NCBI GenBank assembly: GCA_018819105.1 | Contig: JAHJQV010000026.1 | Span: 1 to 49,276, forward strand | Length of the DNA stretch: 49,276 nucleotides | Direction of reading: 5' to 3' | DNA from: Gammaproteobacteria bacterium | GTDB taxonomy: Bacteria; Pseudomonadota; Gammaproteobacteria; Xanthomonadales; Wenzhouxiangellaceae | Shown: positions 42,254-49,276 of the stretch, in pieces | Position numbering within the stretch: the first letter of the stretch is position 1 | How the letters are laid out: each line of letters opens with the position of its first letter | The notes under the pieces: generated by a model | The model's database searches: none | What the model saw: the letters and a program-made list of their open reading frames with translations, nothing else | Told to the model about the DNA's origin: nothing | Program-made: the position numbers and the translations under genes

Positions 42254-42293
42254 TTCCGGCCTGTCACTGCGGCAGCCAACACCAGGTAAACAA

Positions 42294-42634
42294 CGAGTCG
42301 GCCGATAAGCCGGGTTCTGTCGTGGACAGTCATTCATCTGCGACCGCCGTCACCGGCAGCCTGTAGCGACCTACCCGAAGGCGACGCGGGCCACGCCAAG
42401 CCTTCCTATTTGGTCTTGCTCCGGGTGGGGTTTACCCTGCCACAACTGTTGCCAGTTGCGCGGTGCGCTCTTACCGCACCATTTCACCCTTACCACCGTT
42501 ACCGGTGGCGGTATATTTTCTGTGGCACTTTCCGTAGGCTCGCGCCTCCCAGGCGTTACCTGGCACCCTGCCCTGTGGAGCCCGGACTTTCCTCTGTCAG
42601 GCCTGGGCCCGGCAGCGACTGTCTGGCCGACTCG
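42294..42634 (-). ncRNA. rnpB: RNase P RNA (bacterial type A)
   Basis: About 341 bases on the minus strand. The universal GAGGAAAGTCCGGGCTCC (plus 42577-42594) and the 3' core ACAGAACCCGGCTTATCGGC (plus 42302-42321) are both intact, the outer P1 helix pairs GAGTCGGCC with GGCCGACTC, and the GGTAAACCCCACCCGGAGC specificity-domain segment is present. It is the catalytic RNA that matures tRNA 5' ends. Termini are set by P1 and accurate to a few bases. The 42635-42692 and 42254-42293 gaps show nothing else. Confidence 0.97.
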
Positions 42635-47180: not shown

Positions 47181-48668
47181 GTGCGTGCTGCAACCTGGTT
47201 GATTGTGCTGGCTCTGATTGCCGGCAGTGCACCTTCGTTGTGGGCACAGGACAACAGCGCAGAGTCTGGGCAGGCAACCGACATCCCACCTCTGCCGCCG
47301 GGACTCCAGGATCCGCCACCGACAGATAGCAATGCAGAAATCGATGCGCGGACCAGTACAGAGACACCGCCTTTGCCGCAGGGTCTGGGTGACACCACAC
47401 TAGCGTCAAAACCAGCACACAGCGATGCGGTCAACTCAGCTTTTGACAGCGGCGTGCATGGTTTCTGGGAAGTCAGGCTGGGCAGTCGCCTGCGCAGCGA
47501 TCCCGATCAGCGCAGTCTGAGCATGGCAGAAACCCGCTTGCAGTTGCGCCGTGATCAGTCGCTGGGTGCGGTATTGCTGCGGGTCAACGCCGATCTGCTG
47601 TATGACGGCATCGCTGAAACGCAGAACATCGATCTGCGCGCAGGCCGCGGATGGCTGGATCTGCGTCAGGCCTATGTCTCGACACCGCTCGGTCAGTACC
47701 TGGATCTGCGCGCTGGCCGGCAGATACTTACCTGGGGCGTCGGCGATCTGCTGTTTCTTAATGACCTGTTTCCAAAAGACTGGAATGCTTTTTTCATTGG
47801 CCGTGATCTGGAGTATCTGAAGGCGCCGTCTGATGCCATCAAGCTGTCGGCATACACTGACGCATTCAACGTGGACCTGGTCTACACACCCCGCTTTGAT
47901 CCAGACAGATTTGTCGACAACAGCAGATTGTCATTTTTTGATTCGCGCAGCAACAGTGTGATCGGTAGCAGCACTGTGTTCGAGCCGGTGTTGCCGGATC
48001 GCTGGTTCCGGGACGACGAATGGTCGATGCGCGCGCATCGTGTGCTGGGAGCGTGGGAGTTCGCCGGCTATGGCTACCGTGGTTACTGGAAAAGCCCGAA
48101 TGGTTTTCGCCTGGCTGCTGACCACGACATGTCAGCGTCGTTGCAAGTGGTGTTCCCACGCTTGCATGCCTGGGGTGCAAGTCTGCGCGGCCCCATCTTC
48201 AACGGCATTGTGTCGATGGAAACCTCTCGCTATGACTCCCGCGATGACCCGACTGGCAGTGATCCACTGCTGCCCAATGATCAGTGGCGTTTTCTGCTTG
48301 GCTACGAGCAGGAACTGGTCGCCGATCTGACTCTGGGTCTGCAGTACTATCAGGAGCGCACACTGGATTACGATGCATTGCTGGCCTCGTTGCCGGATGG
48401 CATTGCAGCACCCGATCTTCGTCGTCACCTGCTGACTGGCAGAATAAATCTGCTAACCCATAACCAGAACGTGAACTGGACACTGTTTCTGTTTGCCTCA
48501 CCGTCTGATGAGGACTTGTATCTGCGTGCCAGCTGGCAATGGCAGATGACGGATCGCTGGCAGACCGGGATCGGCTTCAACGTGTTTGCCGGAAGACAGC
48601 GGAACAGCTTTTTTGGCCAGTTCACAGACAACACCAATGTCCATGCCAGTCTGCGCTATGGCTTCTAG
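47181..48668 (+). CDS. Predicted outer-membrane beta-barrel protein
   Basis: 495 residues. GTG start, signal peptide (ATWLIVLALIAGSAPSLWAQ), a proline-rich linker with a doubled motif (PPLPPGLQD and PPLPQGLGD), then alternating amphipathic strands to the end with the terminal aromatic signature RYGF. FWEVRLGSRLRSDPDQRSLS, ETRLQLRRDQSL and LRAGRQILTWGVGDLLFLND resemble DUF1302-type porin-like proteins that accompany RND plus LolA-like genes. It would complete an envelope-spanning trio for export of, or signalling with, a lipid-like substrate. Third gene of the operon; no T-rich terminator right after. Confidence 0.85.
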   Translation: MRAATWLIVLALIAGSAPSLWAQDNSAESGQATDIPPLPPGLQDPPPTDSNAEIDARTSTETPPLPQGLGDTTLASKPAHSDAVNSAFDSGVHGFWEVRLGSRLRSDPDQRSLSMAETRLQLRRDQSLGAVLLRVNADLLYDGIAETQNIDLRAGRGWLDLRQAYVSTPLGQYLDLRAGRQILTWGVGDLLFLNDLFPKDWNAFFIGRDLEYLKAPSDAIKLSAYTDAFNVDLVYTPRFDPDRFVDNSRLSFFDSRSNSVIGSSTVFEPVLPDRWFRDDEWSMRAHRVLGAWEFAGYGYRGYWKSPNGFRLAADHDMSASLQVVFPRLHAWGASLRGPIFNGIVSMETSRYDSRDDPTGSDPLLPNDQWRFLLGYEQELVADLTLGLQYYQERTLDYDALLASLPDGIAAPDLRRHLLTGRINLLTHNQNVNWTLFLFASPSDEDLYLRASWQWQMTDRWQTGIGFNVFAGRQRNSFFGQFTDNTNVHASLRYGF

Positions 48669-48753
48669 TCTGCCGGTAAGGATTTATCAGGGCATTAGCC
48701 ACCGCTTACGTATGGAATCCAGCAAGCTCAAGTGACTCAACTTACATGATCAG

Positions 48754-48805
48754 TGCCTTCACCTGCAGCGAAGGCGGAAGGTGAATGACGATACACTGCC
48801 AGGCC
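48754..48805 (-). ncRNA. Truncated leftmost copy of the tandem structured repeat
   Basis: Only the 5' part (minus sense) of the repeat body is present: the GGCCTGGCAGTG strand and the first hairpin (TTCACCT...AGGTGAA arms), with one change in the hairpin loop. The closing strand and terminator are missing; left of 48754 the sequence is unrelated. The 48669-48753 stretch after the barrel gene holds nothing else recognisable. Confidence 0.6.
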
Positions 48806-48828
48806 ATAGGCATTCGTATCCTGTGCAT

Positions 48829-49005
48829 AAAAAAACCCCGACAAAACGAAGTGTATCGGGGTTTTGCTTGTAGATGCCTGGCAGTGACCCGGCTGCGCGG
48901 CCGTAACCGCGACAATGCATAGGCGGACTTCGCCGCTCCGTATGGCCCGTCAGGGCCTTCACCTGCAGCGAAGGCGAAAGGTGAATGACGATACACTGCC
49001 AGGCC
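48829..49005 (-). ncRNA. Structured RNA unit with intrinsic terminator, copy 1
   Basis: Read on the minus strand: a 131-base body (49005-48875) closed by an 11-bp helix GCCTGGCAGTG/CACTGCCAGGC and containing hairpins TTCACCT...AGGTGAA, GGCCC-TGAC-GGGCC, a GCGG/CCGC stem and CGCGG...CCGCG; then a short linker and a terminator hairpin (48861-48836, CCCCGA...TCGGGG) followed by seven T. On the plus strand the same hairpin has only four T, so minus-strand transcription is favoured. Copy 2 follows at an offset of 198. I know no RNA family with this layout. Confidence 0.65.
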
Positions 49006-49025
49006 ATAATATTAGAATCCTGTGC

Positions 49026-49203
49026 AAAAAAAACCCCGACACAGCGATGTGTATCGGGGTTTTGCTTGTAGATGCCTGGCAGTGACCCGGCTGCGCGGCC
49101 GTAACCGCGTCAATGCATAGGCGGACTTCGCCACTCCGTATGGCCCGTCAGGGCCTTCACCTGCAGCGAAGGCGAAAGGTGAATGACGATACACTGCCAG
49201 GCC
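49026..49203 (-). ncRNA. Structured RNA unit with intrinsic terminator, copy 2
   Basis: Same unit as at 48829-49005: body 49203-49073, terminator hairpin 49059-49034 with an eight-base T tract (minus sense). Differences from copy 1 are few and leave the closing helix intact; the terminator inner stem is longer here (ACACA/TGTGT). An open frame that spans copy 1 is stopped here by TGA, so the conservation is not of a protein. TAATAT just upstream (plus 49207-49212 region) is a possible -10 box. Confidence 0.65.
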
Positions 49204-49225
49204 ATAATATTAGAATCCTGTGCAT

Positions 49226-49276
49226 AAAAAAACCCCGACACAGCGATGTGTATCGGGGTTTTGCTTGTAGATGCCT
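49226..49276 (-). ncRNA. 3' end of a further structured RNA unit cut by the window edge
   Basis: The terminator hairpin (49258-49233) with its T tract and the final AGGCATC of the next body are present; the rest lies beyond the window. This shows that the array continues to the right with at least one more copy. Confidence 0.65.

Follow-up and report, generated by a model that had tools for sequence, protein, structure and literature searches.

A tandem array at the end of a gammaproteobacterial contig is most likely a serial rRNA operon terminator tail derived from 5S-end duplication

The window analysed here is the whole stretch of 49,276 nucleotides, and its final 527 bases (48750-49276) hold a minus-strand array with periods of 198-200 in which two units are complete, a third is truncated and three terminator hairpins occur. 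Tandem Repeats Finder reports the same interval as a repeat with a period of 198, 2.6 copies and 95% matches, and a register search places the bodies 200 and 198 bases apart. Because the contig itself ends at 49276, the array ends there as well, and the copy number is a minimum. Downstream of the array lies a convergent gene on the plus strand (47181-48668) for a protein of 495 amino acids, whose match to DUF1302 is weak but above the cut-off.

Read along the minus strand, the array begins with AGGCATC (49270-49276), the end of a 5S-type 3′ strand that belongs either to 5S itself or to a further unit and is cut by the contig end. It continues with terminator hairpin 1 nearest the contig end (49226-49258), complete unit body 1 (49074-49202), terminator hairpin 2 (49026-49059), complete unit body 2 (48876-49004) and terminator hairpin 3 (48829-48861), and closes with truncated body 3 (48750-48804), which register search and arms identify as a 5′ arm and first hairpin only. 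The three terminator stems fold directly at -16.8, -16.8 and -11.4 kcal/mol and are followed by runs of 7, 8 and 7 T. A simple terminator scan listed one of the three, compared with 0.8 expected in shuffles, and thus found no excess.

Both complete bodies, which are supported by fold, arms and model match, are 129 nucleotides long (49202-49074 and 49004-48876), differ at 2 of 129 positions and are each enclosed by a perfect 11-base-pair closing helix. The 5′ arm GCCTGGCAGTG is the complement of the 5S-type 3′ strand and occurs three times on the minus strand (49192-49202 in body 1), and the complete 3′ arm CACTGCCAGGC occurs twice (49074-49084 in body 1). Four internal hairpins besides the closing helix are present both in the fold and in an alignment consensus. 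Compared with dinucleotide shuffles, the two bodies fold with z values of -3.7 and -3.2, and only 1 of 200 and 0 of 200 shuffles folded equally well. A first-pass annotation of this DNA had described nearly all of this anatomy, and we recovered its repeat spacings of 200 and 198, its three bodies with one truncated, its three minus-strand terminator hairpins of GC stem and 7-8 T, its minimum of four internal hairpins and the continuation of the array to the window end. Its body carried the correct 11-base-pair helix, while the length it gave, 131 bases, was slightly too great.

Searches with Rfam gave no family for the array. At the gathering threshold, the only match in the entire window is the bacterial class A RNase P RNA at 42290-42634 on the minus strand (347 bits), and when the array was searched at E values up to 10, 15 matches appeared, all far under their gathering scores. 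This agrees with the earlier statement that no RNA family could be recognised. The RF00001 covariance model for 5S rRNA likewise does not match the array at the gathering threshold or at E values up to 10. The interior of the unit is not 5S, and the 5S family, as defined by its covariance model, does not include the unit.

The boundaries of the unit are another matter. The 3′ strand that closes it (CACTGCCAGGCAT) consists of the 3′ strand of 5S helix I joined to an rrn-type terminator. In the array this combination is present as CACTGCCAGGC plus a hairpin, as at the 5S ends of relatives, and the 3′ strand in the window is identical in sequence to 5S ends found in the family. In units of relatives, the 3′ strand of the closing helix and the terminator duplicate the 5S end and its adjoining terminator. 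The first-pass view that the closing helix only superficially recalls 5S rRNA overlooks this central relation.

The location of the units in relatives is equally informative. A DNA search of 61 genomes produced matches in seven, namely the genome of the window itself, G005, G028, G010, G024, G016 and G008. Among the six matching loci outside the window's genome, Infernal identified a 5S gene at every one and a 23S gene at four (L003, L005, L007 and L008). The most extensive similarity is in G005, Wenzhouxiangella sp. XN79A, a genus placed by NCBI in the Wenzhouxiangellaceae, to which the window therefore probably belongs as well. Here four matches of 69-70% identity form an array. The order in this genome is 23S, 5S, terminator and then 182-base-pair units, of which five were counted, one broken by a run of N. 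For the remaining five genomes, the match is limited to the first 61 bases and represents the 5S 3′ end with its terminator. In G010, G024, G016 and G008, this short match is followed by additional 5S 3′-end copies separated by bodies; none are displayed for G028.

Units with the same core as the window, which we call type A, also follow the 5S gene in G009, G011 and G015. In G098, a member of a second family (f8) that took no part in model building, the order is 23S, 5S, terminator, unit and terminator. A 23S gene is visible upstream of type A units behind 5S in two genomes (G005 and G098). The number of units in relatives ranges from none to five, and among the matches listed, the tails of G028, G033 and G019 from genus g6 lack a unit, which indicates that the unit is dispensable in that genus. 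An exact-pattern scan of named genomes, among which records close to the window's own genome may be missing, matched eight stretches, of which two (L079 and L085) are rrn tails. The remaining six have no adjacent 5S in a simple motif look, read like unrelated sequence and were set aside.

The assembly of the window's genome yields neither a 5S nor a 23S match. This, together with the contig end inside the array, suggests that the contig probably breaks at an rRNA operon. The linkage of the window's array to 5S is by homology, since the 5S gene of its own genome is not visible in the assembly, and we infer that this array would also follow its 5S gene.

Conservation of the type A core was assessed with an alignment (A1) of eight rows from four genomes (the window's, G005, G011 and G015). 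Ten of its 36 predicted pairs show changes on both sides, and its covariation score of 0.241, compared with 0.129 in shuffles, was reached by none of 500. When one row per genome was kept for the four genomes, 8 of the 36 pairs remained changed on both sides. Paired cells amount to 94.1% versus 34.6-42.8% with slid partners, a comparison that favours the test structure because it came from this very alignment. All these measures are also inflated by related rows. Further pair types are no more numerous than in shuffles (232 of 500 as high). The closing helix has changes on both sides at 1 of 10 pairs; the changes sit in the inner helices. Given the origin of the structure and the related rows, we regard the type A covariation as support rather than proof. 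The compensatory changes between species in inner helices are nonetheless in line with the earlier description of structured, apparently non-coding units that each carry a terminator.

A model of this core (R1) has matches in 10 of 398 genomes at E values up to 0.01. Strong matches (E < 1e-9) are found in the four genomes used to build it (G000, G005, G011 and G015) and in two that were not, G009 and G098. Partial matches away from rrn tails number five in G015 and one in G013, and most of them cover the unit's second half. Weak hits in G282, G333 and G358 (E 0.005-0.007) are by eye unlike the units and were rejected.

Other tails, in genus g6 of the same family and in family f8, carry a different core, here called type B. 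Its alignment (A3), built from ten genus g6 genomes and G053 of family f8, includes 26 pairs, 10 of them changed on both sides, and gives a covariation score of 0.313 compared with 0.101 in shuffles, none of 500 being as high. As with type A, the closing helix contributes little, with changes on both sides at 0 of 7 pairs.

At E values up to 0.001, the type B model (R2) has 41 hits in 23 of 398 genomes. Sixteen of the 41 were checked for an upstream 5S end over a reach of 220 nucleotides, or less where the contig was short. In G166, G189 and G074, all from family f8 and outside the alignment, a 5S end lies 70-79 nucleotides upstream of the hit, and in G025 and G034 the unit stands at the contig start. 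No 5S end lies upstream of the other eleven, which score more weakly, and the type B core therefore occurs in rrn tails as well as elsewhere. Five of these eleven dispersed copies lie within inverted repeats longer than the control 95th percentile (14), and two exceed the control maximum (21). The dispersed cores at L245, L235, L237, L236 and L244 are seen within inverted repeats of 15-28 bases with up to one mismatch.

These dispersed copies raise the possibility that a palindromic repeat, dispersed and perhaps mobile, forms the core and has landed in rrn tails by chance, and that the array is neutral debris from unequal recombination. The type B matches at sites other than 5S ends, both within genus g6 and outside it, the inverted repeats around some of them, and the partial type A matches of G015 and G013 off their rrn tails all speak for this explanation. 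Against it, the window's genome, in an incomplete assembly, has the core in the array only, and both models have their top hits behind 5S wherever upstream contig exists, although most of the genomes concerned built the models. On balance we judge a dispersed origin unlikely. REPs are described as palindromes of 20-40 base pairs with a GTAG or CGTC end (PMC3733652), and REP palindromes and clusters (PMC3733652; see also PMC2817692) resemble the present elements in their palindromic form and complementary stem changes, and their dispersal resembles that of the type B core. The array bodies differ in being about 130 nucleotides long and in having 5S-like arms. Many dispersed copies per genome characterise REPs and BIMEs, whereas in the window's genome matches are confined to the array.

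How commonly the 5S end is repeated behind 5S was surveyed across the order. A 5S match is present in 25 of 43 genomes of the family (none in 18) and in 86 of 120 genomes of the order, 70 of these outside the family. From 63 of those 70 genomes, 70 loci were taken (G069, G075, G087, G102, G112, G132 and G169 were omitted). The count took in 51 of these 63; ten others offered less than 300 nucleotides behind 5S, and an unrecognised 5S end excluded G039 and G126. The survey therefore covers 76 genomes (25 from the family and 51 others) with at least 300 nucleotides behind 5S. A repeat was scored when 13 bases of the 5S 3′ end recurred with up to two mismatches within 450 nucleotides behind 5S, with the reversed probe as control.

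By this measure, 23 of 76 genomes repeat the 5S 3′ end, compared with 0 of 76 in the control. By family the counts are 6/25 (f1), 7/18 (f2), 4/7 (f8), 3/13 (f12), 2/9 (f9) and 1/1 (f4), with none in three genomes of f3, f5 and f6. The family of the window (f1) scores only 6 of 25 by the 13-base criterion because most genus g6 units end differently. Among the 18 genomes of family f2, six of the seven with a repeat carry complete 5S genes in tandem, with a spacing of 247-275, and units that carry only the last part of 5S are found in G044 and G096. The tandem f2 genes were noted at L186, L187, L188, L190, L191 and L194, with four in G078.

Such arrangements bring to mind decayed tandem 5S pseudogenes without function. 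Among the published reports listed, PMC7812874 is the only one relevant to rrn tails and gives the closest description found. In Peptococcaceae and Pseudoalteromonadaceae, it describes 5S-like remnants that follow a normal 5S gene at the distal end of rrn operons, sometimes in several copies, with a putative terminator before each copy and insertions inside; 5S is still recognisable in them, and they were judged likely not to be transcribed (PMC7812874). The present units share with them the position (here in relatives), the multiple copies and the terminators, and the complete f2 tandems and partial units of G044 and G096 resemble intermediate stages of such a process. The present units differ from those described there (PMC7812874) in retaining only the 3′ strand of helix I, the rest being a conserved non-5S fold with compensatory changes. 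The core gives no 5S match even at E values up to 10, and compensatory changes in inner helices are not predicted by decay alone, which makes simple pseudogenes a very unlikely account. Likewise, the f2 tandems resemble the array in repeating a 5S end and terminator behind 5S, but they contain the full 5S sequence at a spacing of 247-275, unlike the array units.

The first-pass annotation had favoured a cluster of identical small RNAs, each with its own terminator. As stand-alone genes of about 180 nucleotides, these would each have a promoter of their own as well. A terminator-like hairpin in every unit and a fold with compensatory changes would suit such genes. A scan limited to sigma-70-like promoters found none in 48600-49276, compared with 0.6 expected in shuffles. 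The absence of a sigma-70-like site from the array, and the position of the units of relatives behind 5S in numbers from none to five, render stand-alone genes highly improbable, and we do not retain the earlier proposal.

We consider instead that the array is probably the distal tail of an rRNA operon, in which a repeated 5S end and rrn terminator surround a strongly folded, non-5S core. A serial rrn terminator tail that arose by 5S-end duplication is thus the most likely identity of the array, which is not proven to be a new set of small RNA genes. Its units may have multiplied through recombination or slippage between the repeated 5S-end and terminator segments, and would be transcribed solely by polymerases reading past the first terminator. 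They could then serve as back-up terminators insulating the convergent gene at 47181-48668 and not as separate small RNA genes. Several points stand against an operon tail. The conserved core exceeds what a terminator needs, the window's own 5S gene is not visible, the closing helix hardly covaries, few genomes of the family repeat the 5S end by the 13-base criterion, some g6 tails lack a unit, and the terminator scan showed no excess. In E. coli, the rrnB operon has tandem terminators, T1 and T2, in series after 5S. The array would resemble rrnB in placing terminators serially behind 5S and differs in that each extra terminator is preceded by a 5S-end copy and a conserved fold.

A complement of at least eight bases to the 5S end lies 30-300 nucleotides behind 5S in 18 of 76 genomes, compared with 3 of 76 and 1 of 76 in controls. 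Twelve of these genomes are from f1 (eleven of genus g6, plus G011), and in ten of the eleven g6 genomes the stretch occupies nearly the same place, 67-73 nucleotides behind 5S. G005 and G015 fall one base short, with seven, and the arm of G074 matches its own genome's variant of the 5S end. Conceivably, the segment that follows the first terminator serves as an arm antisense to the 3′ end of the host's own 5S. On read-through transcripts it would capture this end or pair with the next unit's copy of it. The tail would then mark or trim faulty 5S precursors, and excised units would accumulate as stable RNAs. We regard this antisense function as quite unlikely.

Nearly perfect inverted repeats that start at the 5S 3′ end, span the terminator and return were observed in G053 (L155) and G166 (L230). 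As a guess from these two loci, the arm might have been born by snap-back copying at the terminator hairpin, an origin by which it would also match the local 5S.

To our knowledge, the ends of rRNA operons have seldom been examined, and assemblies such as that of the window can break there. Several families of one order repeat the 5S end behind the operon, and in two of them the repeats enclose folded cores with compensating changes. Should the arms act on 5S ends, these tails would add a new level to 5S maturation or rrn termination; otherwise, the tails would be a natural record of rrn-tail growth and decay. An operon tail would also account for contig ends that resemble a novel small-RNA cluster.

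Additional features were seen by eye around these tails. In genus g5, another long palindromic element lies near the rrn tail, around GCGCATGTCCG and GCGCTGGACGCG (L030 of G009, L032 and L085 of G015, and L079 of G005), and its stems differ yet are self-complementary. In genus g6, each assembly with 5S has one rrn tail (G020 has two partial ones), and the sequence past the tail varies between species (L036, L034, L043 and L047).
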